Both the position numbers and the translations under genes were made by a program. From Bryobacterales bacterium (GTDB taxonomy: Bacteria; Acidobacteriota; Terriglobia; Bryobacterales; Bryobacteraceae), in contig PLGA01000637.1 in assembly GCA_003139735.1 (NCBI GenBank), positions 1 to 10,834 on the forward strand: DNA of 10,834 bases, in the 5' to 3' direction. The notes beneath the pieces were generated by a model. It saw nothing but the letters and a program-made list of their open reading frames with translations, searched no databases and was not told the DNA's origin. Shown here one piece after another: positions 1 through 10,834 of this stretch (its first letter is position 1; each line of letters starts with the position of its first letter).

Positions 1-92
1 GAGCCGCGAACGTGAGAGAGCGGTCCCCGGAAGAGCCGTCCCCGGGAGAGCAGCCCCCGCCCGCCCCCCCCGACGAAAGCCCGGACTCCTGA
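1..92 (+). CDS. 3' end of an upstream coding sequence (possibly scpB)
   Basis: The frame beginning at base 3 is open to a TGA at 90-92 and encodes a Pro/Glu/Ser-rich tail ending in PPDESPDS. The stop overlaps the next start by one base (TGATG), which indicates an operon. In many bacteria scpB (condensin accessory protein) directly precedes rluB, so an ScpB tail is the likely identity. That is inferred from gene order, because the visible tail is low complexity and has no diagnostic motif. Confidence 0.55.
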   Translation, partial: AANVRERSPEEPSPGEQPPPAPPDESPDS

Positions 93-847
93 TGCCCGAA
101 GAACGCATCCAGAAGATCCTATCGCAAGCCGGCGTATCCTCCCGCCGCCAGGCCGAGCGCATGATTCTCGAAGGACGCGTCGCCGTGAACGGCGCCGTGG
201 TCACGGAACTCGGCTCCAAGGCCGACCTCGATCGCGACCACATCAAGGTGGACGGCCGCCTGATCCGTGCGCCGCAACACCACGTTTACATCGCCTTGAA
301 TAAGCCCATCAACACCGTGACCACGCTCAGCGATCCCGAGGGCCGCCCCACCGTGATGGACTTGCTCCGCGGAGTGAAGCAACGCGTGTACCCCGTGGGC
401 CGTCTCGATTTTCACAGCGACGGCCTCTTGTTGATGACCAACGACGGTGAGCTGGCCAACGCCATCATGTCCGCCCACACCCACCTGGAGAAGACCTACG
501 TCGTCAAGGTGAATGGGGATCTGACCCCGGAGCAGGAGCGCCAATTCCGGGAGGGCGTCCCGATTTCGGGCCGGCGTACGCTGCCGGCCGGCCTGCGCCT
601 CATTCGCAAGGCCGCCAACCCCTGGTATGAGGTACGCCTGACGGAGGGCCGCAATAACCAGATCCGGATGATGTTCAAGCACTTCGGCCGGCTGGTGGAG
701 AAACTCCGGCGCGTGCGCATCGGGCCGCTCGAACTCGGGCCGCTCAAACCCGGCCAGTTCCGCCATCTGAGCGCGGAGGAAGTTCGGGCGTTGCAGCGCG
801 CCGTCCAAAAAGCGCACGCCTCCCCCCGGCCGGCAGGCGCCCGATGA
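92..847 (+). CDS. rluB: RluB/RsuA-family pseudouridine synthase
   Basis: This 251-aa protein should isomerise a specific uridine to pseudouridine in rRNA, most likely 23S rRNA by analogy with RluB. An N-terminal S4 RNA-binding domain (about residues 3-50, with SSRRQAERMILEGRVAVNG) precedes the synthase domain. The signature PVGRLDFHSDGLLL (101-114) contains the expected catalytic Asp106, and EGRNNQIRMMF (about 188-198) is the second conserved motif of the family. The length is normal. The ATG overlaps the stop of the gene before it, and the TGA overlaps the ATG of the gene after it (ATGA), so three genes appear translationally coupled. RluB, RluE/F and RsuA cannot be told apart here with certainty. 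RluB is favoured by gene order and length. Confidence 0.9.
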   Translation: MPEERIQKILSQAGVSSRRQAERMILEGRVAVNGAVVTELGSKADLDRDHIKVDGRLIRAPQHHVYIALNKPINTVTTLSDPEGRPTVMDLLRGVKQRVYPVGRLDFHSDGLLLMTNDGELANAIMSAHTHLEKTYVVKVNGDLTPEQERQFREGVPISGRRTLPAGLRLIRKAANPWYEVRLTEGRNNQIRMMFKHFGRLVEKLRRVRIGPLELGPLKPGQFRHLSAEEVRALQRAVQKAHASPRPAGAR

Positions 848-1236
848 ACCCGGCGTCCGCCATCCTCCGCTCCGCCAAGACCATCGCGGTGGTGGGCCTC
901 TCGGGCAAGCGTTTTCGCGCCAGTTTCGGCGTGGCGGAATGCCTGCAGCGAGCCGGCTATCGGATCGTCCCGATCAATCCCCTCGAAACTGCGGTTTTGG
1001 GCGAGAAATGCTACCCGGATCTGGACTCCGTGCCGGACCCCATCGACATTGTGGACATCTTCCGGCGCTCCGAGTTCGTGCCGGAAATTGTCGAGGCGGC
1101 CATTCGCAAAGGCGCCAAGGCGGTCTGGATGCAGGAGGGCGTAATCCACGAGCAAGCCGCCCGACGCGCCGAAGCCGCCGGCCTGGCGGTCTTCATGGAC
1201 CGCTGCATCCTGAAGGACCACAGCCGGCTCGCGTAG
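844..1236 (+). CDS. CoA-binding domain protein (YccU-like)
   Basis: This 130-aa protein is a single Rossmann-like CoA-binding domain of the YccU type. It opens with a nucleotide-binding strand-loop (TIAVVGLSGKRFRASFGVAE, about 13-32), followed by YRIVPINP and the conserved helix-strand region DIVDIFRRSEFVPEIVEAAI. The segment AVWMQEGVIHEQAARRAEAAG and the C-terminal MDRCILKDH are also characteristic. The family binds CoA or related nucleotides; its cellular role is not well defined. It starts four bases inside the end of the pseudouridine synthase gene, a spacing typical of coupled translation. Confidence 0.85.
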   Translation: MNPASAILRSAKTIAVVGLSGKRFRASFGVAECLQRAGYRIVPINPLETAVLGEKCYPDLDSVPDPIDIVDIFRRSEFVPEIVEAAIRKGAKAVWMQEGVIHEQAARRAEAAGLAVFMDRCILKDHSRLA

Positions 1237-1247
1237 CCCGTCGGGGT

Positions 1248-1601
1248 TTAGCCAAGCTTGTCGATGACCAGTTCGTCGCCCACCGCGGTCCCGGTCTCGG
1301 CCGCTCTCCCGGCAGGCAATTCCAGCACGGAGTGGGCGCTCAGGCATAGCGAGAGCCGCCAGGCAGGCACGGCCCGCCGCACCTTGCGCACCTTTCGCTT
1401 CCGGTCGAGGTACACCAGATCGATGGGGAACTTCATGAAGAACGTATGGACCGATTCGCACGGGACGATCCACAATCCCTCGCCCGGCGCCAGCCGTTCA
1501 TGTTTGAGCAAACCGACCCGCCTCTTGGCGCTGGTGTCCGCCATCTCGGCGGCCTCCGCCAGGACCGTCCGCCGGGTCTGATTTCGAACCAGAATCTTCA
1601 T
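1248..1601 (-). CDS. DUF192 family protein
   Basis: The 117-aa reading from ATG at 1601 (MKILVRNQTRRTVLAEAAEM) fits the DUF192 family. It contains the hallmark VHTFFMKFPIDLVYLD (51-66) and SVLELPAG (91-98). The frame continues 24 codons further upstream to 1673, but that extension runs through an inverted-repeat intergenic region and looks non-coding, so the inner ATG is preferred. Many family members carry a signal peptide; this one shows none. The function is unknown. It follows pnp in the same direction after a 93-bp gap that holds two hairpins. Confidence 0.85.
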   Translation of the reverse strand: MKILVRNQTRRTVLAEAAEMADTSAKRRVGLLKHERLAPGEGLWIVPCESVHTFFMKFPIDLVYLDRKRKVRKVRRAVPAWRLSLCLSAHSVLELPAGRAAETGTAVGDELVIDKLG

Positions 1602-1611
1602 GGTTTGGTGG

Positions 1612-1669
1612 CGCAGACGATCGTTTTTCGTCGTCTGCGTTGGCAGGCCACGGAAAACGATGGCCTGCC
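1612..1669. repeat. Tandem pair of perfect hairpins with complementary loops
   Basis: Two 9-bp perfect inverted repeats stand side by side, each with a 10-base loop. The first has arms CGCAGACGA (1612-1620) and TCGTCTGCG (1631-1639). The second has arms GGCAGGCCA (1642-1650) and TGGCCTGCC (1661-1669). The first loop, TCGTTTTTCG, is complementary at 9 of 10 positions to the second loop, CGGAAAACGA. The pair lies between the pnp stop and the DUF192 start. There is no T-run after either stem, so a standard intrinsic terminator is unlikely. It may be a mobile palindromic repeat or an mRNA-stabilising element. Confidence 0.75.
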
Positions 1670-1694
1670 CCACAGTTAATTCCTGGACACTGCG

Positions 1695-3803
1695 CTAATT
1701 CTTGCCTTGGTTGAGCTTCTCCCGCTGTTCGCGGAGCACCGCCCTGCGGCTGAGCTTGATTTTGTTGCCTTCCAAAGCCAGAACTTTGACCAGGATCTGG
1801 TCGCCTTCCTTCAGCTCATCGCGGACGTCGCGTATGCGGTTCTCGGCGATCTCGCTGATGTGCAGCAGCCCATCGGTTCCCGGGAAGATCTCGACGAACG
1901 CGCCGAAATCCACCAGCCGGACCACCGTCCCCAGGTACGTCTTCCCCACCTCGGCCGAAGCCGTCAGGTCCGAAATAATCTGGAGCGCCTTCTTGGCCGA
2001 CGCTTCATCCGCCGAAGCCACGTGGACCGTTCCATCGTCCTCGACATCGATCTTGACGCCGGTCTGCTCGATGATTCCGCGGATGACCTTGCCGCCGGGT
2101 CCGATGACGTCTCGGATCTTGTCGGTCGGAATCTTCAGGGTGTAGATGCGCGGCGCGTATTGCGACATGGCGGACCGCGGCTCCGCGATCGCCTCGTACA
2201 TCTTGTCGAGAATGAACAGCCGGCCCCGGCGCGCCTGCTCCAGAGCTTCCTTCATGAGGGCCGTGGTCACGTTGGTGACCTTGATGTCCATCTGCAGCGC
2301 CGTAATGCCCGTGCGCGTGCCGGCCACTTTGAAATCCATATCGCCGTAATGATCCTCGGCGCCGGCGATGTCGGTCAGGATGGCGTACTTATCGCCTTCC
2401 TTCACCAAGCCCATGGCCACGCCGCCCACGTGCGCCGGCAGAGGCACGCCCGCATCCATCAGGGATAGCGACGCGCCGCAGACCGCCGCCTGCGAGCTGG
2501 AGCCGTTCGATTCCAGGGTGTCGCTCACCACACGCATGGTGTACGGGAATTTGTCGGCGTCCGGGATCAGCGGGCTTAGGGCGCGCTCCGCCAAAGCGCC
2601 GTGGCCGATCTCGCGCCGGCCCGCGCCGCGCATGAAGCCCACCTCTCCCACGCTGAACGGCGGGAAGTTGTAGTGCAGCATGAAACGCTTGGAAGGAGAT
2701 TCGCCGGGTTCCAGCAGCTCGATGCGCTGCTCGTCGTCCTTGGTGCCCAGCGTCACCGTCACCAGCGCCTGAGTCTCGCCGCGAGTGAACAGGGTCGAGC
2801 CGTGCGTACGCGGCAGAATCCCGGTCTCGATCGTGATCTTGCGGATCTCATCCATCGCGCGGCCATCCGGACGGCGATGGTTCTCCAGCATCTCGTCGCG
2901 GAAGATGCGCTCCTTGAGAGCGTCGTAGCACTTGGCGCCTTCCGCCTGCTGCTCTTCCGGCAGCGCCTCCACCACGCGGTGCTTCACTTCGGCCACTTTC
3001 GCGTAGCTCTCCAGCTTTTCGTATTTCTGGGTGTTCAGCGCGTCGGTCAGATCCGCGCGGGCGGCTTGCGCAACCTGCGCGTAAAGCGCCTGGTCGAGCG
3101 TGGGCGGCGTGTACGCCCGTTTGGGCTTGCCGGCCAAGGCAACCAGTTTGCGGATGCCGGCGGCGATCTTCTTGCAGCAATCGTGGCCGAATTCAATGGC
3201 GCCGAGCACCTCCGTTTCCGAAACCTCGCGCGCGCCGGCTTCCACCATCACGATCCCGTGTTCGGTGCCGGCAACCACGATGTTCAATTTGGACTCGCGG
3301 CCCTCCGTGTAGGTGGGGTTCGCGACATAAGCGCCATCCTTCATTCCCACCCGCACTCCGGCCAGTACGTGCTCGAACGGAATATCGGAAATGGCTAGCG
3401 CGGCTGCTGCGCCCGCGATCGCCAGGGAATTCGGATCCTGCTCGGGATCGGCCGACAGCACCATGGCGATCACCTGGGTTTCGATCATGAACCCTTCCGG
3501 GAACAGCGGACGGATCGGCCGGTCGATCAGACGGCAGGTGATTACTTCTTTTTCCGAGGGACGGCCCTCGCGTTTGATAAAACCGCCGGGAATCTTACCG
3601 GCGGCGTAAGTGTATTCTCGATAGTCTACGGTGAGCGGAAAGAACCCGGCTCCCGGTTTGGCCTGCTCGGCCATGCAAGCGGTGACGAGGACGACCGCGT
3701 CCCCGGAGCGAACGACTACGGCGCCGTTCGCCTGTTTGGCCATCTTGCCCGTTTCCAGGGTAAGCGTACGGCCGCCCAGATCTACTTCAACTGTATGAAC
3801 CAT
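1695..3803 (-). CDS. pnp: Polyribonucleotide nucleotidyltransferase (PNPase)
   Basis: PNPase degrades RNA 3' to 5' by phosphorolysis and is part of RNA turnover complexes. From the ATG at 3803 the protein has 702 residues, the usual family length. Two RNase PH domains are visible; the second contains the catalytic-region block GAEDHYGDMDFKVAGT. These are followed by a KH domain (IPTDKIRDVIGPGGKVIRGI) and an S1 domain (TYLGTVVRLVDFGAFVEIFP to NKIKLSRRAV). The open frame extends 39 codons upstream to 3920, but that stretch runs through a structured leader. The inner start matches the family N-terminus (MVHTVEVDLGGRTLTLETGK) and has GGAGG upstream, at a rather long spacing of about 13 bases. It lies downstream of rpsO, the classical rpsO-pnp arrangement. 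Confidence 0.97.
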   Translation of the reverse strand: MVHTVEVDLGGRTLTLETGKMAKQANGAVVVRSGDAVVLVTACMAEQAKPGAGFFPLTVDYREYTYAAGKIPGGFIKREGRPSEKEVITCRLIDRPIRPLFPEGFMIETQVIAMVLSADPEQDPNSLAIAGAAAALAISDIPFEHVLAGVRVGMKDGAYVANPTYTEGRESKLNIVVAGTEHGIVMVEAGAREVSETEVLGAIEFGHDCCKKIAAGIRKLVALAGKPKRAYTPPTLDQALYAQVAQAARADLTDALNTQKYEKLESYAKVAEVKHRVVEALPEEQQAEGAKCYDALKERIFRDEMLENHRRPDGRAMDEIRKITIETGILPRTHGSTLFTRGETQALVTVTLGTKDDEQRIELLEPGESPSKRFMLHYNFPPFSVGEVGFMRGAGRREIGHGALAERALSPLIPDADKFPYTMRVVSDTLESNGSSSQAAVCGASLSLMDAGVPLPAHVGGVAMGLVKEGDKYAILTDIAGAEDHYGDMDFKVAGTRTGITALQMDIKVTNVTTALMKEALEQARRGRLFILDKMYEAIAEPRSAMSQYAPRIYTLKIPTDKIRDVIGPGGKVIRGIIEQTGVKIDVEDDGTVHVASADEASAKKALQIISDLTASAEVGKTYLGTVVRLVDFGAFVEIFPGTDGLLHISEIAENRIRDVRDELKEGDQILVKVLALEGNKIKLSRRAVLREQREKLNQGKN

Positions 3804-3827
3804 TGTGTTTTTTAAACCTCCAACCTC

Positions 3828-3899
3828 GGCCGGAAACCAGTCCCGGCCTGTCAAAATCGGTCTCCCCAAAGGGATCCCCATTGAGACTGGAGTTGACAG
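3828..3899 (-). promoter_or_regulatory. Structured pnp leader (two stem-loops)
   Basis: The 159-bp gap between rpsO and pnp can fold into two hairpins. The one nearer the pnp start has arms GGCCGG (3828-3833) and CCGGCC (3843-3848) with a 9-base loop. A longer one has outer arms CTGTCAA (3848-3854) and TTGACAG (3893-3899), a symmetric 5-base internal loop on each side, and inner arms GTCTC (3860-3864) and GAGAC (3883-3887). In E. coli the pnp leader stem is cut by RNase III and mediates autoregulation. A similar role here is inference from position and shape. Confidence 0.5.
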
Positions 3900-3962
3900 G
3901 ATGGATGGCCCTTCGGGCATCGGGGACGCGCCCCGGCCCGCCGAACCAGTTTGGCGGATGGA

Positions 3963-4232
3963 CTAGCGCCGAATGCCAAGCCGTTGCAGAACCGCCTTGT
4001 AGAGTTCCGGATCCGTCTTGCGAAGGTACGTCACAAGCCGGCGCCGCTTGGCAACCAAGGTCAAAAGCCCCTTGCGGGAGCCGTTGTCCTTTTTGTGCGC
4101 CGCGAAGTGCTCCAGGAGCAGCGTCAGGCGCTGACTCAATAGGGCAATTTGAACTTCTGGCGACCCGGTGTCGGATTTGTGACGCTGATTCGTCGAGAGG
4201 ATCTGCTGCTTTGCTTCGCTCGCCAGTGCCAT
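3963..4232 (-). CDS. rpsO: 30S ribosomal protein S15
   Basis: The 89-aa protein from ATG at 4232 is a full-length S15. S15 binds the central domain of 16S rRNA early in 30S assembly. Recognisable blocks are HKSDTGSPEVQIALLSQRL, HFAAHKKDNGSRKGLL, LVAKRRRLVTYLRKTDPELY and the C-terminal LGIRR. The frame stays open upstream to 4475, but this extension crosses a palindromic repeat and a pseudogene and is not part of S15. AGGAG lies about 13 bases before the start. S15 often represses its own mRNA through a folded leader; no such element can be assigned with confidence here. Confidence 0.97.
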   Translation of the reverse strand: MALASEAKQQILSTNQRHKSDTGSPEVQIALLSQRLTLLLEHFAAHKKDNGSRKGLLTLVAKRRRLVTYLRKTDPELYKAVLQRLGIRR

Positions 4233-4283
4233 TCTAGAGGTAGTGCTCCTTGTCTTCTCTAAATCTCGTTTAGGTACGAATAC

Positions 4284-4292
4284 AGAATACCA
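4284..4292 (-). promoter_or_regulatory. Candidate extended -10 promoter for rpsO
   Basis: On the minus strand the sequence reads TG-G-TATTCT, an extended -10 box without a recognisable -35 element. It would start transcription about 45 bases upstream of the rpsO ATG. Placing the start here would exclude the palindromic repeat further upstream from the transcript. Confidence 0.3.
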
Positions 4293-4298
4293 CATTGC

Positions 4299-4365
4299 AA
4301 GGGACAGACGAGCCTGTCCCAAGGCGCGGTTTTTTGCGCCGCGTGGACAGACCCGTCTGTCCCTG
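4299..4365. repeat. Nested palindromic repeat upstream of rpsO
   Basis: The outer arms AGGGACAGACG (4300-4310) and CGTCTGTCCCT (4354-4364) are perfectly complementary over 11 bp. Each half also folds on its own: GGGACAG/CTGTCCC (4301-4307, 4314-4320) and GGACAGAC/GTCTGTCC (4345-4352, 4355-4362, 2-base loop). The centre holds a third hairpin, GGCGC (4323-4327) and GCGCC (4336-4340), around a T-run. The element can therefore switch between one long stem and a three-hairpin form. It abuts the relic gene upstream and may have been inserted into it. Confidence 0.75.
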
Positions 4366-4567
4366 GTTTGCGCTATCCCACGTTCCATCCGCGCGGGCGC
4401 GATCTTCTCGGCCTGCATCAGGAAAATCGGTTCGGCGAGCGGCGTGACCACCGGCGAACTGGCCCCGTCGATCACGTAGGCTTCCTGCCGGGCCGCGGCC
4501 CGTCGTACTTTTGCGCCAAGGCGGCGAAGGCCAGCGCAAACAAGAGCAGCGGAGCGCGGCGTGCCAC
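4366..4567 (-). pseudogene. Relic of a secreted acidobacterial protein, frameshifted and truncated
   Basis: From GTG at 4567 the minus strand encodes a clear signal peptide (VARRAPLLLFALAFAALA) followed by QKYDGPRPGRK, then a stop at 4472. A second frame continues with YVIDGASSPVVTPLAEPIFL and MQAEKIAPARMERG before it runs into the palindromic repeat. From memory, Acidobacteria carry secreted proteins that begin AQKY-GPRPP and reach GASSP-TPLA-PIFL some 30 residues later. If so, an internal piece and the 3' end are missing here and the frame has shifted. Part of this relic shares its frame with rpsO, which explains why S15 seems extended upstream. The identification is recall; the two-frame pattern is visible directly. 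Confidence 0.55.
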
Positions 4568-4608
4568 GGGTACTATCTTAACCCGTGGAGTGGGCTTTCC
4601 AGCCTGCC

Positions 4609-4630
4609 ATGCCGCCATTCCTGGCGGCAT
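4609..4630. repeat. Perfect 9-bp hairpin between the relic gene and the antitoxin
   Basis: The arms ATGCCGCCA (4609-4617) and TGGCGGCAT (4622-4630) enclose the loop TTCC. It lies between the divergent relic gene and antitoxin relic. The bases after it are pyrimidine-rich but not a T-run, so a terminator is doubtful. It resembles the other palindromic intergenic elements of the window. Confidence 0.6.
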
Positions 4631-4662
4631 TCTTCCCCGCCCCGAAGTGCTATATAAGGAGT

Positions 4663-4950
4663 ATGAACACCGCCCACGATATTTAGCCGTTGACGTATTT
4701 TCGCCGGCAATCGGCCGATGTTGTAAAGCGGTTGAAGGCCACCCGCCGTCCCATGGTTCTTACCATCAACGGCAAAGCGGAATTGGTGGTTCAGGATGCC
4801 GCGTCCTATCAACGGCTCCTCGATATCGCCGCCCAGGCTGACCCCCGCGAGGGGATTCGCCAAGGCCTGGACGACATTTCGCGGGGCCGCACGCGCCCAG
4901 CGCGCGAAGTCTTCGACGCTCTCCGCGCCGAATATGACATACCGCGTTGA
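4663..4950 (+). pseudogene. Phd/YefM-type antitoxin with a nonsense codon
   Basis: From ATG at 4663, immediately behind AAGGAG, the frame reads MNTAHDI, then TAG (4684-4686), then PLTYFRRQSADVVKRLKATR and PMVLTINGKAELVVQDAASY to the end. The conserved core is that of Phd/YefM antitoxins, DNA-binding proteins that neutralise a RelE/ParE or Doc toxin and repress their own operon. Relatives have Tyr or a similar residue at position 8, so a point mutation probably created the stop. Re-initiation at TTG 4690 would yield an 86-aa protein lacking the first nine residues, which belong to the DNA-binding edge. The partner toxin is also destroyed. Confidence 0.75.
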
Positions 4951-5053
4951 ACTGACGGACCGCTCGACTCCAGTAACACTTCTGACGAGCATGGGCGGTA
5001 CGATTGAGGGACAGACCTGCGGAAAGGAGCGAGAGCAATGGCCCCGCCGATGA
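4934..5053 (+). pseudogene. 5' remnant of a RelE/ParE-type toxin gene
   Basis: An ATG at 4934 overlaps the end of the antitoxin frame by 17 bp, the usual arrangement for this toxin-antitoxin class. The first residues, MTYRVELTDR, match the start of RelE/ParE toxins. After about ten residues the similarity ends and the frame runs as unrelated sequence into the TIGR03435 start region, stopping at 5053. The toxin was evidently cut by a deletion that joined it to the next gene's upstream region. The call rests on a short match plus gene context. Confidence 0.5.
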
Positions 5054-5345
5054 CGGGAACGGCGCTGGCGGTATTAATTAGCTGGGGGTCGGCGAACGGC
5101 CAGACCGCCGACACACGGCCTGTATTCGAGGCGGCTTCGGTCAAGCCCGCTGGCCCTTTCGTGCCGACGCCGAACCTTGTCTTCATGCGCGGCGGTCCGG
5201 GATCGGATGATCCGGGACAGATTGCTTGGACGCGGGTCACGCTGACGACTGTGCTGACGCGGGCTTATGAAGTTTCCAGGGACCAAATCTCAGGCCCCGA
5301 CTGGCTCAACACCGAGATGTACAGCATCGTCGCCAAGATTCCGCG
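5038..5345 (+). pseudogene. TIGR03435 family protein, N-terminal part (interrupted)
   Basis: The start ATG at 5038 has AAAGGAG 8 bases upstream. A short hydrophobic signal-like leader (MAPPMTGTALAVLISWGSAN) is followed by FEAASVKPAGPF, ARVTLTTVLTRAYEV-type sequence (here WTRVTLTTVLTRAYEVSRDQ) and ISGPDWLNTEMYSIVAKIP. These are the hallmarks of TIGR03435, a family of unknown function found in many copies in Solibacter-like Acidobacteria. After codon 102 the family sequence stops and a stop codon follows four codons later, at 5353-5355. The rest of the gene begins at 9783. The two parts sum to 930 nt, exactly 310 codons, and the codon split across the junction becomes CGG. The leader suggests an exported protein. 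Confidence 0.88.
5341..5345 (+). repeat. Left copy of the 5-bp direct repeat CCGCG
   Basis: CCGCG at the left edge of the insert is repeated at 9778-9782. The flanking bases differ on both sides (ATT before and TCT after here; ACA before and GAA after on the right), so the shared stretch is exactly five bases. It may be a target-site duplication, the overlap of a site-specific recombination, or microhomology. Confidence 0.8.
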
Positions 5346-5467
5346 TCTTCGATAGTTGGGGATTTTGATAGCAGCGATGCTTTCGATGCTTTCGCAGTAA
5401 TCTCTTTCAGCACCTTGTACGGCTGATTGATGTCACCAGCATGAATCTCTATGTCAGTAACCTTCAT
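5346..5467 (-). pseudogene. YbjQ/heavy-metal-binding-like protein, N-terminal fragment
   Basis: An ATG at 5467 follows a good ribosome binding site (AGGAG, about 8 bases upstream on the minus strand). It encodes MKVTDIEIHAGDINQPYKVL, a stretch KEITAKASKASLLSKS, then PTIED, where the insert ends. From memory this matches the beginning of small cytosolic proteins in the YbjQ-like group, which continue with an alpha/beta domain of roughly another 60 residues. About 40 codons remain; the frame then reads antisense host sequence to a stop at 5306. The tandem 9-bp repeat GATGCTTTC (5376-5393, plus strand) is the Lys-Ala-Ser repeat of this protein. The call on the family is moderate; the truncation follows from the position of the junction. 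Confidence 0.5.
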
Positions 5468-5501
5468 TGTGATCGCTCCTAGTCGGTTCTGGTGCTCTAC
5501 C

Positions 5502-5936
5502 TTACTTTCCACAACCGGCCCGTTCCCACTTATCCTTTTCCTTGGCGGCGGCAGTCGTCTGCCATTGCATGTTGCTTGGGGCATCTGTTCCACCACACGC
5601 CAACGGGTTGATGTGGTCGATTATGTAGCCGGGGCAAGCGCCTCCAAGTTTGTGGACGCCGGGAGCGGGGCACGGACTGGACGCCTCGAATTGACGTTTC
5701 GCCGTCTCGCTTCGAGCGATTCGGCCTTTGGCGTTGCGCTTCACGCCGGTCGCTGTTTTTGCCGCCGTTGTTTTCGTCGCAGCCTTCGTTGCCGCTTTTG
5801 GCGCTGAACGATCATGAGCTTGGACTACGACGCCATCTTTGCGAGTGTACGTGCCAACGTGGACAGATTTCGATTGTGGGTACGCCAGCGCAATGAAGAT
5901 CAAACATAGGCACAGCGCAAATGATCGGACCTTCAT
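5502..5936 (-). CDS. Exported HNH endonuclease
   Basis: This 144-aa protein begins with a signal peptide (MKVRSFALCLCLIFIALAYP). A short segment, VGTYTRKDGVVVQAH (28-41), resembles the YxRKDGTxVxxHxR element seen in exported bacterial proteins. An Ala/Lys/Thr-rich linker follows (43-64). The nuclease domain spans about 70-141: GRIARSETAKRQFEASSPCP, then CPGYIIDHINPLACGGTDAP and SNMQWQTTAAAKEKDKWE. D107-H108 and N121 are the likely HNH residues, with C89/C101 as possible structural metal ligands. HNH enzymes of this type cut DNA non-specifically or at nicks; the substrate here is unknown. The ATG overlaps the stop of the upstream gene (ATGA), so translation is coupled. It probably acts in the periplasm or outside the cell. 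Confidence 0.8.
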   Translation of the reverse strand: MKVRSFALCLCLIFIALAYPQSKSVHVGTYTRKDGVVVQAHDRSAPKAATKAATKTTAAKTATGVKRNAKGRIARSETAKRQFEASSPCPAPGVHKLGGACPGYIIDHINPLACGGTDAPSNMQWQTTAAAKEKDKWERAGCGK

Positions 5937-6322
5937 TTCTTTCTCGTATAGACTTTCTTGCCGCTGGTGCTGTAGTGGTACTCGCCGCCTCTAGGTCCGG
6001 TATAGTTTGGTTGCCCTGATGCGGTTGTCGTGCCATTGGGCGTTTCCCCCGCCCCGGCCTTCGCTGTAGGCGTGGCGGGCTTGCTAGGCGTGTCCGTGGT
6101 GTTTGCAGTGCTGGCGGGCGTTTCTTGCTTACTAGCAGCCGCAGTAGTGGGCTTGGCTGGAGTTTCGGCGCTACCCTTTGCGGCTACACACTTGCACAAG
6201 TACTCGCCGTCGCCGGTAGCGGCACATTTGCAGTCTAGGTTTGCTGGTAACTGTGCCCGAAGCGCCAGGGCCAGCGTGAATACAATCGAAATAGCCAGAA
6301 CAACCGGAAGGGTCCGCTGCAT
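5933..6322 (-). CDS. Exported Cys-rich protein with PBCV-type basic adaptor motif
   Basis: The 129-aa protein has a signal peptide (MQRTLPVVLAISIVFTLALA), then a small cysteine cluster (C31, C33, C43, C45), a long Thr/Ala/Pro-rich linker (about 52-104) and the C-terminal motif YTGPRGGEYHYSTSGKKVYT (107-126) followed by RKK. The TGPRGGxY-GKKVY motif is that of the small PBCV-specific basic adaptor family, which is appended to many otherwise unrelated proteins, including bacterial surface and toxin-like ones. The start has a perfect AAAGGAGG site close by. It is the first gene of a two-gene operon with the exported HNH nuclease, suggesting a partner or targeting role, but no function is established. 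Confidence 0.75.
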   Translation of the reverse strand: MQRTLPVVLAISIVFTLALALRAQLPANLDCKCAATGDGEYLCKCVAAKGSAETPAKPTTAAASKQETPASTANTTDTPSKPATPTAKAGAGETPNGTTTASGQPNYTGPRGGEYHYSTSGKKVYTRKK

Positions 6323-6334
6323 GGGCCTCCTTTC

Positions 6335-6368
6335 GGTATTTTCATACCTCTTGGTACTCTATCACCAA
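6335..6368 (-). promoter_or_regulatory. Candidate promoter of the exported HNH operon
   Basis: On the minus strand a weak -35 (TTGGTG, 6363-6368) and a -10 (TATGAA, 6341-6346) are 16 bases apart, just before the AAAGGAGG site and ATG. A dyad, GGTAT (6335-6339) and ATACC (6344-6348), overlaps the -10 and could be an operator. A second dyad, ATCAC/GTGAT (6361-6365, 6370-6374), overlaps the -35. Confidence 0.3.
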
Positions 6369-6481
6369 TGTGATGAAAAGGAACAGTGTTTTCTAATTGC
6401 CGCCGCTGACAAGAAGGCAGCGGAAGGCGGGAATGTCGTATCCGGCGAAGGAGCGCCCATCCTCATGCCGCTGTTGCCTAT

Positions 6482-6532
6482 CCAGTGAACTGGTGAATTG
6501 GCTTGCCAAACTTGCCAGTTCTGTCGTATGCT
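6482..6532 (+). promoter_or_regulatory. Promoter with nested operator palindromes for the RHH-methyltransferase operon
   Basis: A -35 TTGCCA (6503-6508) and a -10 TATGCT (6527-6532) are separated by 18 bases and would start transcription a few bases before the ATG at 6545, giving a very short leader. Three dyads cover this region: CCAGT/ACTGG (6482-6486, 6489-6493), TTGGC/GCCAA (6498-6502, 6505-6509) on top of the -35, and a wider GAACTGG/CCAGTTC pair (6487-6493, 6515-6521) nearly co-centred with it. CTTGCCA also occurs twice, 9 bases apart. This is the layout expected for an autoregulated RHH operator. Confidence 0.55.
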
Positions 6533-6544
6533 ATCTTTTGGTTC

Positions 6545-6742
6545 ATGAAGAAGTATGAACCGCCTTCAAAACCCGGACGAAAGCCAGCCAAGCACTCGAA
6601 CCCTGAGTACGTCCAGGTGACGGCATACGTGCCAAGGGAAATGCGGAACAAGGTAAAGGCACGGCTGGCCGAACTGGAGATGGAATTGTCCGATTTGGTC
6701 GAAGGGATGTTGAGCGATTGGCTGGCGAAGCAGAGAGGATAG
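6545..6742 (+). CDS. Ribbon-helix-helix (RHH) transcriptional regulator, probable RM controller
   Basis: The preferred start is ATG 6545 (MKKYEPPSKPGRKPAKHSNP), giving 65 residues; an upstream in-frame ATG at 6503 lies on the -35 box and is unlikely. A basic N-terminal arm (2-20) is followed by YVQVTAYVPREMRNKVKARL, AELEMELSDL and VEGMLSDWLAKQ. This is the beta-strand, helix, helix pattern of CopG/Arc/MetJ-type dimers that insert a two-stranded ribbon into the major groove. The stop lies one base before the methyltransferase ATG, so the two genes share a transcript. Nested palindromes on the promoter suggest autorepression. Classical RM controllers (C proteins) are helix-turn-helix proteins; an RHH protein in this position is unusual. 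No strong Shine-Dalgarno is seen. Confidence 0.65.
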   Translation: MKKYEPPSKPGRKPAKHSNPEYVQVTAYVPREMRNKVKARLAELEMELSDLVEGMLSDWLAKQRG

Positions 6743-6743
6743 A

Positions 6744-7613
6744 ATGGGAACGGTTGCTTCACGGAAAATGATTGAAGCGTGTGAAATCATCGTAGGCGAT
6801 TCTCGAAATATCCTGGCGAAACTTCCGGCTGAGACGTTTCACTGCGCCATTACAAGTCCACCGTATTGGGGTCTCCGTGACTATGGCATCGTTGGACAAA
6901 TCGGTGCTGAGATGGAAATGGAAGAATACATTTCCGATTTGGTGATGGTATTCCAGGGTGTGAAGCGAGTCCTTCGGGATGACGGATCATTGTGGCTGAA
7001 TATAGGCGACTCGTACACCAGCGGGAACCGTGGCTGGCGTCAAGCTGACGGCAAAAACTCCGCAAGAGGAATGAGCTACAGACCACCCAATCCAAAAGGT
7101 CTTAAAGATAAGGAACTGATTGGGATTCCGTGGCGGCTGGCTATTGCGCTACAAGCGGACGGTTGGTATCTTCGCTCAGACATCATCTGGTACAAACCCA
7201 ACTGCCAACCAGAGAGCGTGAAGGATCGGCCTACACGTTCACACGAACACGTTTTCCTTCTGACAAAGAATGAAAACTACTATTACGACCACGAAGCTGT
7301 GAAAGAGCCTACGATGCCGGGATCATTCCGAAGTCGCCGTGACGTTTGGTTAATCAACACTGAGGCTTCGAGAGAAGCCCACTTCGCAATGTTTCCGCCT
7401 TCGCTTGTGAAGGTCTGTATGGAAGCTGGAAGTCCCAAAGGAGCGTGCATTTTGGACCCGTTCTTTGGAGCCGGAACGGTTGGTGTTGTAGCGCTGAGAA
7501 ACGAACGACGTTGTGTAGGTATCGAACTGAAACCCGACTATGCGGAGATTGCACGGAAGCGAATAGCCGCCGTAAATCCTATGCTACCTCTGCGTTCAGT
7601 GGAATCCGCCTGA
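6744..7613 (+). CDS. DNA methyltransferase, beta class, probably N4-cytosine
   Basis: The 289-aa enzyme transfers a methyl group from S-adenosylmethionine to an exocyclic amino group in DNA and protects the host from the neighbouring endonuclease. The order of motifs is that of the beta class: catalytic TSPPYWGLRDYG (37-48) first, and the SAM-binding DPFFGAGTVGVVA (238-250) and VGIELKPDY (258-266) near the C-terminus. TRSHEHVFLLTK (164-175) and HFAMFPPSLV (213-222) are further conserved blocks. SPPY is most common in N4-cytosine methylases, DPPY in N6-adenine ones. The segment between YYYDHEAVKEP and RRDVW, where many relatives hold the target recognition loop, is short. It has GAGG ahead of the ATG. 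An alternative start is Met9. The 3' end overlaps the endonuclease gene by 35 bp. Confidence 0.9.
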   Translation: MGTVASRKMIEACEIIVGDSRNILAKLPAETFHCAITSPPYWGLRDYGIVGQIGAEMEMEEYISDLVMVFQGVKRVLRDDGSLWLNIGDSYTSGNRGWRQADGKNSARGMSYRPPNPKGLKDKELIGIPWRLAIALQADGWYLRSDIIWYKPNCQPESVKDRPTRSHEHVFLLTKNENYYYDHEAVKEPTMPGSFRSRRDVWLINTEASREAHFAMFPPSLVKVCMEAGSPKGACILDPFFGAGTVGVVALRNERRCVGIELKPDYAEIARKRIAAVNPMLPLRSVESA

Positions 7614-8370
7614 TGCCCCACTCAGCGTGTACAAAGCATAGGTCCTTTCTCAATTTCTGAATCTGTAGCTTTCGCTCCGTACCGCCGTCAAAATAAAGTT
7701 CAAATACAAGCCTCCCATGCTCAATCACCGAACACCGTCCGGGTTTTGGAGTCTGTCTGCTAGTGTGGTTCATGAGCGGGGGACAGTTGGCAGATTTTTG
7801 CAAAAGAGCCTTTGGGATTTCTACAAGCTCGTACTCCTGTAAGGTCGCTGAATCCGTGAGACGGCGAAGCTGAAGGATGCGGTCATAGGCTTCCATGTGC
7901 CGGAAAAAACGGTCACGCAACCCTACCAAATCCTCCTCGTTGACCCACTGGCCTTTACCTAGCTCCATGAATTTTGAGATGTGCAAGAAATCTCTTCGGA
8001 TGTCTCTGTCCGCTTGTGTCTTCAAGCTGAACGGCGTTCCCATAATCGTGATGTCATGTCCAGGATTGCACTTGTCCGCAAGCGTGGATTCAATCCCGCA
8101 CTGGTTCAGCACACGATTGAACGCATATTCAAATCTGTCCTTTGATAAAGCCTCTCTCGAAAAGCAGTGGTGGATTTGGAGCGCATCACCGAACATTTCC
8201 AAAACACAATCTGTGATGAGATCGGACGCTGGATTTCGTTTGAGAACGGGGTCAATAGTGAACTGCCGAATCACGCCTTCCATCCAATCCAATTGGCTCT
8301 CGCTTAGATCGGTTAGAGATTGGGCAAGAGCCTTGATCTTAGCGGCTCTCGCTTGAGGGTCAATCGGCAT
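7579..8370 (-). CDS. Type II restriction endonuclease, SmaI-like from memory
   Basis: The 263-aa protein converges on the methyltransferase and is the obvious restriction partner. A helical N-terminus (1-60) precedes IHHCFSREALSKDRFEYAF, then the likely active site GHDITIMGTPFSLKTQADRD (104-123), in which D106 and K117 could belong to a PD-(D/E)xK-type centre with Ser115 in the place of the second acidic residue. Next come HISKFMELGKGQW (130-142), YELVEIPKALL (180-190), TPKPGRCSV and VFELYFDGGTERKLQIQKL. I associate the HISKFMELGKG and KPGYC/FELYFDGGTERKLQ pattern with SmaI (site CCCGGG), whose methylase is also N4-cytosine specific; this is unverified recall. Length and completeness fit an intact enzyme. 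It has no visible Shine-Dalgarno and may be translated from a nearly leaderless mRNA. Confidence 0.75.
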   Translation of the reverse strand: MPIDPQARAAKIKALAQSLTDLSESQLDWMEGVIRQFTIDPVLKRNPASDLITDCVLEMFGDALQIHHCFSREALSKDRFEYAFNRVLNQCGIESTLADKCNPGHDITIMGTPFSLKTQADRDIRRDFLHISKFMELGKGQWVNEEDLVGLRDRFFRHMEAYDRILQLRRLTDSATLQEYELVEIPKALLQKSANCPPLMNHTSRQTPKPGRCSVIEHGRLVFELYFDGGTERKLQIQKLRKDLCFVHAEWGIRRIPLNAEVA

Positions 8371-8377
8371 TGGAACG

Positions 8378-8401
8378 TATAGTAGAACACAATTTGGCCG
8401 T
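8378..8401 (-). promoter_or_regulatory. Candidate promoter and operator of the endonuclease gene
   Basis: On the minus strand CTACTATA (8385-8378) sits 7 bases before the ATG and could supply a -10 box (TACTAT), giving a nearly leaderless mRNA. No good -35 is seen. Just upstream, plus-strand AATTTGGCCGT (8391-8401) resembles the AATTGGC half of the palindrome at the RHH promoter. Confidence 0.3.
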
Positions 8402-8418
8402 TAAGAGCGCATACGCTT

Positions 8419-8631
8419 CTAGGCCCGTGGGTGCGTCGGTAAAGGGCGGGCGATGGAATCTCGCACTTCTTTGGCTTCGGCTCTCATCAGCGCCAAACGG
8501 CGAAGCACGGGAGCCGGGTCAATTTTCTGGTGGCTTCCCATTTTCCGAATGGTGGTGATGGCAATACGAAGACCGCCACGAAGAAGGTCAAGCTGGCGAA
8601 TCACGTCCGCACGTGTGGCGGGAGTAGGCAT
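8419..8631 (-). CDS. Small hypothetical protein, 70 aa
   Basis: From ATG at 8631 the frame encodes MPTPATRADVIRQLDLLRGG, then LRIAITTIRKMGSHQKIDPA and PVLRRLALMRAEAKEVRDSI, ending in ARPLPTHPRA. It is basic and predicted to be mostly two helices, the second a possible coiled coil. I recognise no family. It lies upstream of the endonuclease on the same strand, separated by 48 bp, and carries the same CTACTATA box as the endonuclease just before its start. That box is only 2 bases from the ATG, too close for a normal -10, so a start further in (GTG at 8604) is possible. Its last codons are echoed by a second copy at 9188-9212. It could be a regulator or accessory protein of the RM system, but nothing proves it. 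Confidence 0.4.
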   Translation of the reverse strand: MPTPATRADVIRQLDLLRGGLRIAITTIRKMGSHQKIDPAPVLRRLALMRAEAKEVRDSIARPLPTHPRA

Positions 8632-8711
8632 AGTATAGTAGTGCGCCACCAGCGGAGTTTTTCTCAGGAATATTCGCAGGATGCCGGTTGCCTGCGGCGT
8701 GGCCGATTTCA

Positions 8712-8767
8712 TTCAAGAATTGGCCGTGTTGTGGTAGAGTGAGGGCGATTCTCGATCTTTCAGGAGA
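8712..8767 (+). promoter_or_regulatory. Candidate promoter and ribosome binding site of the 107-aa gene
   Basis: A weak -35 TTCAAG (8712-8717) and -10 TAGAGT (8735-8740) are 17 bases apart. Between them is GAATTGGC (8717-8724), identical to the 8 bases at 6495-6502 on the RHH promoter. AGGAG (8762-8766) precedes the GTG at 8776 with a 9-base spacing and decides that start. Confidence 0.35.
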
Positions 8768-8775
8768 GTAGAGCC

Positions 8776-9099
8776 GTGGAGAGCCGCAAGTTTTACGTTA
8801 CGCCCAATCAAATTTTGGACGTTGAGATCGTTGGCGACGTTAGATACCACGAAGCCGGGTCACCAACAGGAATGACGAATATTGTTCTTGTTGACTCCGG
8901 GGAATTTGAGGTCCAGCCAGATACGGAGGCGAAGTCGTGGCTTACCATCGGCTTCAAAGATCCTGACAAGGAGTGGATTACTCTGCACGGCGATGAAGCG
9001 GATACGGCGTGGAAGAACTTCAGAAGGGCGGCGAATATTGAGGGCGAGGCGGTGGTAATGGGGCTGAACGATCTTGATGAAATGCGCTCGAAATCGTGA
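8776..9099 (+). CDS. Hypothetical protein, 107 aa
   Basis: The gene starts with GTG at 8776, supported by AGGAG 9 bases upstream. The protein opens MESRKFYVTPNQILDVEIVG and contains the segments TNIVLVDSGEFEVQPDTEAK, SWLTIGFKDPDKEW and AANIEGEAVVMGLNDLDEMR. It is acidic, lacks signal peptide and membrane segments, and looks like a small alternating alpha/beta or mostly beta cytosolic domain. I do not recognise a family. It is transcribed away from the endonuclease side and shares an 8-base match with the RHH operator. In this setting it could be cargo, an inhibitor or modulator of the RM enzymes, or an unrelated passenger. Codon use looks like real coding sequence. Confidence 0.65.
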   Translation: MESRKFYVTPNQILDVEIVGDVRYHEAGSPTGMTNIVLVDSGEFEVQPDTEAKSWLTIGFKDPDKEWITLHGDEADTAWKNFRRAANIEGEAVVMGLNDLDEMRSKS

Positions 9100-9517
9100 C
9101 TGGTCGTTTTTCGCTAATAAGCCCCGGTGCTTTCTTCCGTTTGGCCGCACGCCGCATAGTTTTGTCTTCTGCCGTTTCCCGGCGCTTTTAGGCCCGTGGC
9201 TGCATTGGCGGGCGCTACGATGGGGTTGGGGGTGGGGGCGCTGTGGTAGCTAGGCGAATCCTAGTTCACGCCTACAAATGCTGGCGTCATGAATCACGCT
9301 CCTACTCCTGGTGCATTCCCTCTTCCGCTCGACTCGAATTTGCGGCGCTCCTGGTGCTCCGTTCTTGATGTAGCTTTCTAGTCTGGTAGGATTACTGGTA
9401 GGATGGCGGTTAGGGTGGTAGGATTCTCCAAAAAGCGGATTTTTGATGCCTCTAACGTATTGAAAATAAAGCTATTGATTGGGCAAAACGTCCGAATCCC
9501 TCTTCCTCCGCCATACT

Positions 9518-9560
9518 TTTAGATACATCTAAATGCTGTTTTATCAGGTAGATACATCTA
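9518..9560. promoter_or_regulatory. Two copies of the palindrome TAGATACATCTA
   Basis: TAGATACATCTA occurs at 9520-9531 and 9549-9560, 29 bases apart. The first copy extends to arms TTTAGAT (9518-9524) and ATCTAAA (9527-9533). The second copy ends 10 bases before the -35 of the integrase promoter. Duplicated identical palindromes next to a promoter are a standard sign of an operator for a dimeric repressor or activator, or of excisionase binding sites. Confidence 0.6.
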
Positions 9561-9570
9561 TCCCATCGGT

Positions 9571-9598
9571 TTGACGGCTGGTAGAACGGTGGTAGGAT
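9571..9598 (+). promoter_or_regulatory. Promoter of the truncated integrase gene
   Basis: A -35 TTGACG (9571-9576) and a -10 TAGGAT (9593-9598) are 16 bases apart. Six bases separate the -10 from the ATG at 9605, so transcription should begin at or next to the start codon, giving a leaderless mRNA. No Shine-Dalgarno is present, which agrees. Confidence 0.5.
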
Positions 9599-9604
9599 AG
9601 AAGT

Positions 9605-9782
9605 ATGGAACAGCATTTGACGATCTACCGGAACCATACGCCAGCGTGCGTGCATGGCTACCGGAAACCCATCAGGGACGGCGATTCAACCGTCCCTGAT
9701 TGCTCCTGCCCTTTGAACGCAGCCGGGTACTTGCGCCACGTCGTAAACCAGGACGGCACGCCCAAGCGCATCCAACACCGCG
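9605..9782 (+). pseudogene. Tyrosine recombinase/integrase, N-terminal fragment
   Basis: From ATG 9605 the frame encodes MEQHLTIYRNHTPACVHGYR, a charged loop, DCSCPLNAAGYLRHVV and TPKRIQHR. From memory this is the N-terminus of site-specific integrases common in Acidobacteria and their mobile elements, which begin LYRRH-C-HG with a downstream CxCP pair and continue with the SAM-like core-binding and catalytic domains. Only about 59 codons are left; the sequence is cut at the right edge of the insert, then reads GILQVISSI out of frame in the TIGR03435 gene to a stop at 9811. The catalytic Arg-His-Arg-Tyr residues are all missing, so the protein cannot recombine DNA. Reading across a circular joint gives only a few residues before a stop, so the missing part is not at the left end. 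Confidence 0.65.
9778..9782 (+). repeat. Right copy of the 5-bp direct repeat CCGCG
   Basis: This is the counterpart of the copy at 5341-5345. TIGR03435 coding sequence resumes directly after it, in frame with codon 103. Confidence 0.8.
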
Positions 9783-10404
9783 GAATACTACAAGTCATCA
9801 GTTCGATCTGATGCTGCAAGACCTCCTGGCGAAACGTTTCCACCTAACTCTTCACCACGCCACGAGAGATTTCCCGGCCTACGACCTGGTTGTGGCGAGT
9901 GGCGGGCCAAAGATGAAACCCTGGCGTCCGGACGCGAATGCCGTGACCGTCCCACCGGCTAGCGCGACTTTTCCGCACGGCCTCGACAAGGGCGGCTTTC
10001 CTGTGCTGCCGCCGGGCGCCACAACGCTGACCACGATTCGCAATGGGGTGGTGTATTCGACGAATAGATCGACGATGGCTGGTTTCGCCGCACAGTTGGG
10101 GGGCATGGTGAATTTGTCGGATGGTAGCAGCAGTGCGACGCCTCGTGTGGTTGACAAGACCGGCCTGACGGGAAAGTTCGATTTCAGGCTGGAATTTGCG
10201 ATGTCTGTGATGCCGCTGTCAGGTGAGCGAGGCGACCAACCGCCGCCTGACGAAAGTGGCGCGAGCCACCTGGCGGGCAGTGGTGGTCCAACCCTTTTCA
10301 CCGCACTCCAGAAACAACTCGGCCTGAGGTTGCAGAAGGGGAAGAAGGCCAGCCTGGATCTCCTGGTAATCGACCACGTGGACAAAGTCCCGACTCAGAA
10401 CTGA
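9783..10404 (+). pseudogene. TIGR03435 family protein, C-terminal part (interrupted)
   Basis: This is the rest of the gene begun at 5038. It opens TTSHQFDLMLQDLLAKRFHL, then TRDFPAYDLVVASGGPKMKP, a variable middle, STMAGFAAQLGG, the signature PRVVDKTGLTGKFDFRLEF, and ends with TLFTALQKQLGLRLQKGKKA and LLVIDHVDKVPTQN. These are all typical C-terminal features of TIGR03435. No new ribosome binding site precedes it, so it is probably untranslated now. No further frameshift or stop is seen in either half, which indicates a recent insertion. Its stop lies 25 bp before that of the convergent Rrf2 gene. Confidence 0.88.
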
Positions 10405-10429
10405 TTCCTTCGCAGAGCTTCCCGCCCCC

Positions 10430-10834
10430 CTACTGCATCAGCCTTAACCCGCCCGGCCCCGGAATGGTCCGCACCCACGAATTCATCTCTTCTTCGTTTT
10501 GCAGCAGATCGCGCAGCGTGGCCTTGCCCAGCACGCCATCCACGGCCACCTGCAACGCCCGCCACAGCGAACGCACGGAGCAGTCCACCGAACGCGTGCA
10601 AATGGCGGCCTGGCCGGCGTGGCTGTCGCAGAAGTCGCTTTCGAATAGCCGCCCCCCGAGCGCGTCCATCACGTCGCCGATCACAATCTCCGCGGCCGGC
10701 CGCGCCAGCGTGTAGCCGCCTTCCTTGCCGCGCGCCGCTTTCACGAACCCGCCTTTGCGCAGCGCCCGCAGGATCTTGGCGGCGTACGCCGTCGACACGC
10801 CCTCCGCCTCGCTGATTTCCGGAATGGTCAGCGA
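10430..10834 (-). CDS. Rrf2/IscR-family transcriptional regulator (5' end outside window)
   Basis: The frame is open to the window edge: SLTIPEISEAEG continues into VSTAYAAKILRALRKGGFVK and ARGKEGGYTLARPAAEIVIG, the winged helix-turn-helix DNA-binding region of Rrf2 proteins. The cysteine segment FCDSHAGQAAICTRSVDC follows, with Cys-x9-Cys-x5-Cys, compared with Cys-x5-Cys-x5-Cys in IscR. This suggests an Fe-S cluster sensor, though the wider first spacing is noteworthy. SVRSLWRALQVAVDGVLGKA and TLRDLLQ form the dimerisation helix and end. In many Acidobacteria such a gene precedes suf genes for Fe-S assembly; those would be transcribed downstream on this strand, but here the convergent TIGR03435 gene lies there instead. 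About 25 N-terminal residues are missing from view. Confidence 0.85.
   Translation of the reverse strand, partial: SLTIPEISEAEGVSTAYAAKILRALRKGGFVKAARGKEGGYTLARPAAEIVIGDVMDALGGRLFESDFCDSHAGQAAICTRSVDCSVRSLWRALQVAVDGVLGKATLRDLLQNEEEMNSWVRTIPGPGGLRLMQ

Follow-up and report, generated by a model that had tools for sequence, protein, structure and literature searches.

The question raised by this locus is how a piece of DNA carrying restriction-modification (R-M) genes came to lie inside a TIGR03435/DUF3738 gene of a Bryobacterales bacterium (contig PLGA01000637.1 of assembly GCA_003139735.1), and what kind of element it had been before. The window, the whole stretch of 10,834 bases analyzed here, comprises bases 1-10834 of a contig of 13,544 bases. 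The first-pass annotation described an exact 4,437-bp insertion that split the gene and carried an R-M island. The exact insertion and the R-M cargo were borne out, but the segment between the CCGCG repeats could not be upheld as an island in its own right, since both of its ends cut donor genes and an attachment-like site lies within it. We suggest, with a probability of roughly two in three, that a fragment of a genomic island associated with a serine transfer RNA gene (tRNA-Ser) was captured by illegitimate recombination at CCGCG within one of several TIGR03435 paralogs. The locus is a clear yet fairly ordinary case of DNA capture, a further example of a type already known.

Insertion into the TIGR03435 gene

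The interrupted gene and its borders comprise the following features.

5038..5345, + strand: 5′ part of the split TIGR03435/DUF3738 gene (102 codons plus 2 nucleotides; profile positions 2-72, E 1.1e-16)
5341..5345, no strand: left copy of the direct repeat CCGCG (5 bp)
9778..9782, no strand: right copy of the direct repeat CCGCG (5 bp)
9783..10404, + strand: 3′ part of the split TIGR03435 gene (profile positions 70-241, E 2.3e-45)

The two halves, of 308 and 622 nucleotides (nt), add up to the predicted 930 nt and translate into 309 amino acids (aa) and a stop, with no internal stop codon; as the left half ends 2 nt after its 102nd codon, the break falls in codon 103, as first proposed. Together the halves span the NCBIfam TIGR03435 profile (241 positions) from end to end. 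In the interrupted state, the frame of the left half reads into the insert and stops at 5355. Two TIGR03435 paralogs, one from the same genome (C194, 307 aa) and one from another genome of the genus (G003, 318 aa), align with the joined protein through the joint without a gap, and the gaps elsewhere in the alignment are ordinary. The DNA of C194 matches base for base over the joint, reading AAGGTTCCGCCGAATGCTACG against AAGATTCCGCGGAATACTACA in the joined gene, and by the alignment with the paralogs no host base was lost there.

The insert of 4,437 bp is bordered by CCGCG, which is the sole repeat common to both junctions, with five bases matching leftward and none rightward. An identity of 5 bp or more occurred in 0.56% of 200,000 random insert/flank crossovers. 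The G+C content is 52.7% in the insert and 63.1% and 62.5% in the two flanks. The 12 bp of the target, ATTCCGCGGAAT, form a perfect palindrome, one of five such palindromes in 6,386 flank positions, and we regard it as suggestive at most.

The locus had also been called a clean empty-site/filled-site case. This holds for the joint, which is exact, and only in part for the empty site, which is represented by paralogs: an orthologous or conspecific intact copy was not found in the same-genus genomes, a comparison that did not extend to a large protein set searched for the intact 309-aa protein. The undamaged state of both halves makes the suggestion that the insertion is recent plausible.

Donor genes cut at both ends of the insert

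At each end of the insert lies the 5′ portion of a gene that stops at the joint.

5346..5467, − strand: 5′ fragment of a ybjQ/UPF0145-type gene, about 41 codons, cut at the left joint (by its homologs)
9605..9777, + strand: 5′ fragment of a tyrosine-integrase-type gene, about 58-59 codons, cut at the right joint (by the homologs P0034 and P0035)

A search with the ybjQ-type sequence gave 32 matches, namely the window's own open reading frame (ORF) and 31 others, 27 of which are 113-127 aa long; one homolog (P0003) matches PF01906. All 31 continue beyond the residues SPTIED, where the frame in the window enters host sequence. The codon that is cut encodes valine in 25 of the 31 homologs and alanine in the remaining 6, so that CCGCG at this end may be of donor or of host origin, in whole or in part. 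The fragment itself matched 1 of 400 genomes, which was the bacterium's own.

The integrase end can be placed more closely. P0034 (241 aa, 71% identical) continues with HRSLDTKDW, and P0035 (171 aa, 69% identical) with HRSLETKDW, exactly where the joint falls. More distant relatives with a Phage_integrase match measure 391 aa (G180) and 451 aa (a frame in G200), and the gene in the insert, cut at about codon 59, is therefore no complete integrase of the sort an intact island would carry. The 58-aa fragment matched 5 of 300 genomes of relatives and 2 of 396 genomes of the phylum, its own being counted in both, and P0034 matched 6 of 250 genomes at E 1e-10, where the only match in the own assembly was the fragment in the window. 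Related integrases of which only the first ~50-60 codons are present were also seen beside tRNA-Ser or tRNA-Ser-like sequence at two other loci (L024, 1501-1662; L025, 1501-1680). Decay of such an integrase near its start thus recurs, as two other genomes of the family hold start-only fragments.

The histidine-arginine pair conserved in P0034 and P0035 predicts CAC or CAT followed by CG at the right end of the donor, and part of the right-end repeat, up to the CG of the arginine codon, may therefore be donor-derived. CCGCG flanks both sides, and with the present data a short target duplication and donor sequence look the same. Because the donor and host shares of CCGCG are inseparable, the host duplication may be anywhere from 0 to 5 bp.

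An attachment-like tRNA-Ser site inside the insert

A pointer to the origin of the insert lies close to the integrase fragment.

9490..9513, + strand: attP-like copy of the 3′-terminal 24 bases of tRNA-Ser(TGA), 23 of 24 identical to the host tRNA on contig C388

This site is 91 bp upstream of the integrase start and precedes the right CCGCG by 264 bp. The host's own tRNA-Ser(TGA), at C388:1-90 (L069), is intact and reaches precisely to the end of the contig, and the break there may reflect a branch in the assembly. The last 21 bases of this tRNA gene are identical to the site in the insert. An Rfam scan gave a single match, with an E of 0.9 and below the gathering score.

Similar arrangements occur elsewhere. 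In G085, an intact tRNA-Ser(TGA) lies 74 bp upstream of a related integrase fragment, collinear with the arrangement in the insert. In G047, a tRNA-Ser-like sequence that ARAGORN does not call precedes another integrase fragment, and in G200 a tRNA called SeC lies ~70 bp before the full-length integrase relative. In the window only the end of the tRNA is present, with the integrase start on one side of it and cargo on the other. Direct repeats of the tRNA end, which would bound an intact island, are not what borders the insert: the tRNA-Ser end is internal, and CCGCG stands at the ends. Because the attP-like end lies between the cargo and the integrase start, the order is that of an excised circle or of tandem copies and not that of a single island within a tRNA gene. 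The insert would thus be part of a tRNA-Ser genomic island that was present as a circle or in tandem.

The R-M pair

The cargo includes an R-M pair, preceded by a small ORF.

6503..6742, + strand: small ribbon-helix-helix-like protein, possible regulator (weak: NF041793 E 7e-4, below its cut-off; PHROG Arc-like E 0.07)
6744..7613, + strand: DNA methyltransferase of the N6/N4 class (PF01555 E 1.8e-46; PADLOC MTase_II E 2.3e-124; motifs TSPPY and DPFFGAGT)
7579..8370, − strand: SmaI-family type II restriction endonuclease (PF17411 E 2.2e-91, positions 2-238 of 240)

The R-M content reported earlier can be specified as a SmaI-type pair, in which an endonuclease with a PF17411 (SmaI) match over 236 of its 263 residues is linked to a methyltransferase, both apparently full length. 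The two genes are convergent and overlap by 35 bp. Relatives of both proteins in G074 and L029 match them over almost their full length and are encoded by genes that are convergent too, and the endonuclease is 77% identical to that of G074 over residues 8-263. At E 0.001 the endonuclease matched 12 of 300 genomes of relatives, including its own; among the other matches, three are 50-77% and eight are 27-33% identical. A separate scan of genome contigs gave 1 relative. Among solved structures, none matched the endonuclease under E 0.5, and 12 sequences matched the methyltransferase.

Compared with 12.8 kb of G074, the window shares DNA only in the region of the methyltransferase and endonuclease (6789-8350), which suggests that the pair moves separately from the rest of the fragment. 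The pair in G074 (L085, G074:C46) is itself flanked by a direct repeat of 421 bp (7075-7495 and 9961-10381, 90.7% identical). The repeat stems, as judged by eye, from an apparent fumarylacetoacetate hydrolase gene and is reminiscent of an R-M insertion with a long target duplication. The ribbon-helix-helix-like ORF ends one base ahead of the methyltransferase start and is a candidate regulator unlike the usual C proteins; it had no match in the compared stretches of G074 and L029.

Origin of the insertion

The joint is exact, two donor genes are cut, an attP-like site is internal, and the R-M pair is apparently full length. From these observations we infer a circular or tandem source, illegitimate joining, and retention favored by the R-M genes. 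The source island would normally integrate at the 3′ end of tRNA-Ser by means of its tyrosine integrase. The donor may have been an excised circle or tandem island copies, as the attP-like site suggests, and the fragment may have been circular or linear on entry. It would then have been joined through the 5-bp match CCGCG in one TIGR03435 paralog by illegitimate recombination, with all host bases kept and the gene disrupted. Thereafter the R-M pair probably helped to keep the fragment in place by harming cells that lose the R-M genes. Very short identity without host loss is what reciprocal illegitimate integration would leave, and both were found here (5 bp, and an alignment with the paralogs free of gaps).

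A more specific version is that a tRNA-Ser island circle, a deletion derivative that had lost its integrase and could no longer use its own attachment site, integrated by one reciprocal 5-bp crossover and was retained by its SmaI-type R-M pair. The joint of such a putative 4.4-kb circle would read CAACACCGCGTCTTCG. On this version, which we hold only tentatively, the locus would be a naturally occurring case of integration selected by restriction.

Several points weigh against the capture of an island fragment. A fragment captured with every host base kept is a less likely outcome than an insertion accompanied by a small deletion, and a single crossover with a circle needs one that had previously lost the DNA between the integrase and the ybjQ-type gene, an extra step that was not observed. 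The 12-bp palindrome at the target might point to an enzyme of twofold symmetry. P0034 and P0035 have no Pfam match themselves. Ku, which is present in 27 of 61 genomes searched, was not detected in the own assembly, which is 82% complete, and Ku-dependent end joining is therefore not supported. Finally, no complete tRNA-Ser island of this kind with such an R-M pair was found. The insert has no second copy in its own genome, where the only further match was to a paralog of the TIGR03435 gene. Viral contigs held no relative of the integrase fragment, the endonuclease, P0034, or the attP region. Among plasmids, the integrase fragment and P0034 were unmatched; the endonuclease matched 8 records at less than 60% identity, and the insert DNA 57 records, the 20 best rows all falling within the methyltransferase region. 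Among phages, P0034 was unmatched, and the insert DNA matched 31 records, again with the 20 best rows all within the methyltransferase region.

The alternative that survives best, which overlaps with the preferred explanation, is that a linear foreign fragment was simply ligated into a double-strand break of the host, with CCGCG partly of donor origin. Ends that cut through genes suit a random fragment, and the donor right end predicted from the histidine-arginine pair allows for a repeat that is part donor and a host duplication of 0-5 bp. The absence of any host base loss and the failure to detect Ku in this assembly count against such an event, which would still require a circular or tandem source for the order around the attP-like site, and we regard it as somewhat unlikely.

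It might also be supposed that the R-M unit is a transposon-like element that inserted itself and duplicated 5 bp of its target. A review (PMC3874152, citing Furuta et al. 2010) describes R-M units that have imperfect terminal inverted repeats and duplicate a short stretch of target, and the present insert resembles them in its apparently intact R-M pair and in the short direct repeat at its ends; the R-M relatives in G074 and L029 also stand in differing contexts. In contrast to those units, the insert has no terminal inverted repeats (its interior ends score 10 at 25 bp, a value equalled by 696 of 2000 random pairs), and its ends cut donor genes that are unrelated to each other. In the 12.8 kb compared, the DNA shared with G074 is confined to the region of the two R-M genes. 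No transposase match, such as an insertion sequence or composite transposon would give, was obtained among the scanned ORFs of the insert, which were searched with Pfam, NCBIfam, and PHROGs (5306-5596, 5502-5936, 5933-6322, 6503-6742, 6744-7613, 7579-8370, 8776-9099, and 9605-9811) or with PADLOC and PHROGs only (8419-8712). Self-insertion of this kind is therefore improbable.

Slightly less credit is given to site-specific integration by a recombinase acting in trans that recognizes the palindrome ATTCCGCGGAAT or CCGCGG. The target palindrome and the 5-bp identity would suit it, but the donor ends fall within conserved coding regions, no complete recombinase is left in the insert, and the only attachment-like site seen, the tRNA-Ser end, was not used.

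An assembly fault at the joints is unlikely. There is no sign of an assembly break, which would have undone the case, at either CCGCG, and the joints are free of N. For the ORF over the right joint (68 aa, of which nine residues form a chimeric tail), 1 member sequence and 7 contigs are on record, the longest of 16,364 bases, and for the ORF over the left joint 3 member sequences and a single contig, 4,710 bases long, although these assemblies are possibly not independent. Even though the genome is fragmented (661 contigs, 4% contamination) and X residues in translations past 10834 imply runs of N further along the contig, a metagenome assembly chimera is very improbable, since two joints would have to hit one host base and keep the frame, and the ORFs that cross them are also listed on other contigs.

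Comparison with known systems

The closest parallel to the capture of an island fragment is experimental. In the part of their study considered here, Takahashi et al. (2011, PMC3031569) describe reciprocal crossing-over between a PaeR7I R-M plasmid and the Escherichia coli chromosome at 1 or 3 bp of identity in 2 of 28 products, and retention of the integrated plasmid that was selected by restriction. Like these Type III products, the present locus has R-M DNA joined at very short identity, a joint free of insertion sequences, and no use of a mobility enzyme of its own. Unlike them, in which, as far as that account goes, a whole plasmid was joined at 1 or 3 bp in the laboratory, it holds a partial island fragment joined at 5 bp, and it is known from an assembly of many contigs, with the circle only deduced.

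Genomic islands that target tRNA genes by means of a tyrosine integrase are a known kind of element. The insert is like them in that a copy of the tRNA-Ser 3′ end adjoins the integrase start, and unlike them in that the integrase is truncated and the attachment-like site, which is internal, played no part in the present insertion. The R-M pair is predicted to resemble the SmaI system, whose endonuclease cuts CCCGGG, in combining a PF17411 endonuclease with an N4/N6-type methyltransferase; it differs in its small associated protein, which is ribbon-helix-helix-like.

The travel of R-M genes without a linked mobility gene has been deduced largely from genome comparison, according to the relevant portion of the review cited above (PMC3874152). 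The present locus is a natural example of the movement of R-M genes that lack their own mobility enzyme. Its base-resolution joints and its internal, unused tRNA-Ser marker suggest that the island donor was in circular or tandem order, and the locus indicates that the cargo of an island can persist beyond its integrase when it lands in a gene that has several paralogs. Since the sequence shows both joints and the unused attachment-like site directly, the locus is of moderate use. In the literature searched, TIGR03435 was not mentioned, and Acidobacteria, genomic island, integrase, and tRNA-Ser never occurred together.

Other features and history of the locus

Four further ORFs of the insert are listed below.

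5502..5936, − strand: 144-aa protein with a signal-like N-terminus (by eye) and a weak HNH match (PHROG HNH E 0.008-0.01; Pfam HNH E 0.08-0.16)
5933..6322, − strand: 129-aa protein with a PBCV_basic_adap-like C-terminus (Pfam E 0.0014, slightly below the curated threshold) and a signal-like N-terminus (by eye)
8419..8712, − strand: 97-aa ORF with no credible family, which may not be a gene
8776..9099, + strand: 107-aa ORF with no credible family

The surroundings of the split gene were compared within the genus. An Rrf2 gene is present in 4 of 4 same-genus genomes, including the own one. Among the three others, only G003 can be aligned on both sides, and G001 and G002 match on the Rrf2 side only. 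The homology between G003 and the window stops at 4963 and restarts at 10421, and in G003 the order is Rrf2, ORFs resembling a toxin-antitoxin pair together with a ParE-like toxin (by eye), and relB. The stretches of G001 and G002 that were compared gave no TIGR03435 match beside Rrf2, and Rrf2 was their only match to the window. Since G003 has other ORFs at this place and the stretches of G001 and G002 have no match, the TIGR03435 gene is, judging from these alignments, a variable occupant of the spot between relB and Rrf2. At 4934-4963 of the window, the start of a ParE/RelE-like toxin (MTYRVELTDR, by eye) overlaps the end of an antitoxin-like ORF (4690-4950). This toxin start loses its homology to G003 at 4963, and the antitoxin thus appears to have lost its partner at the point where the TIGR03435 gene starts.

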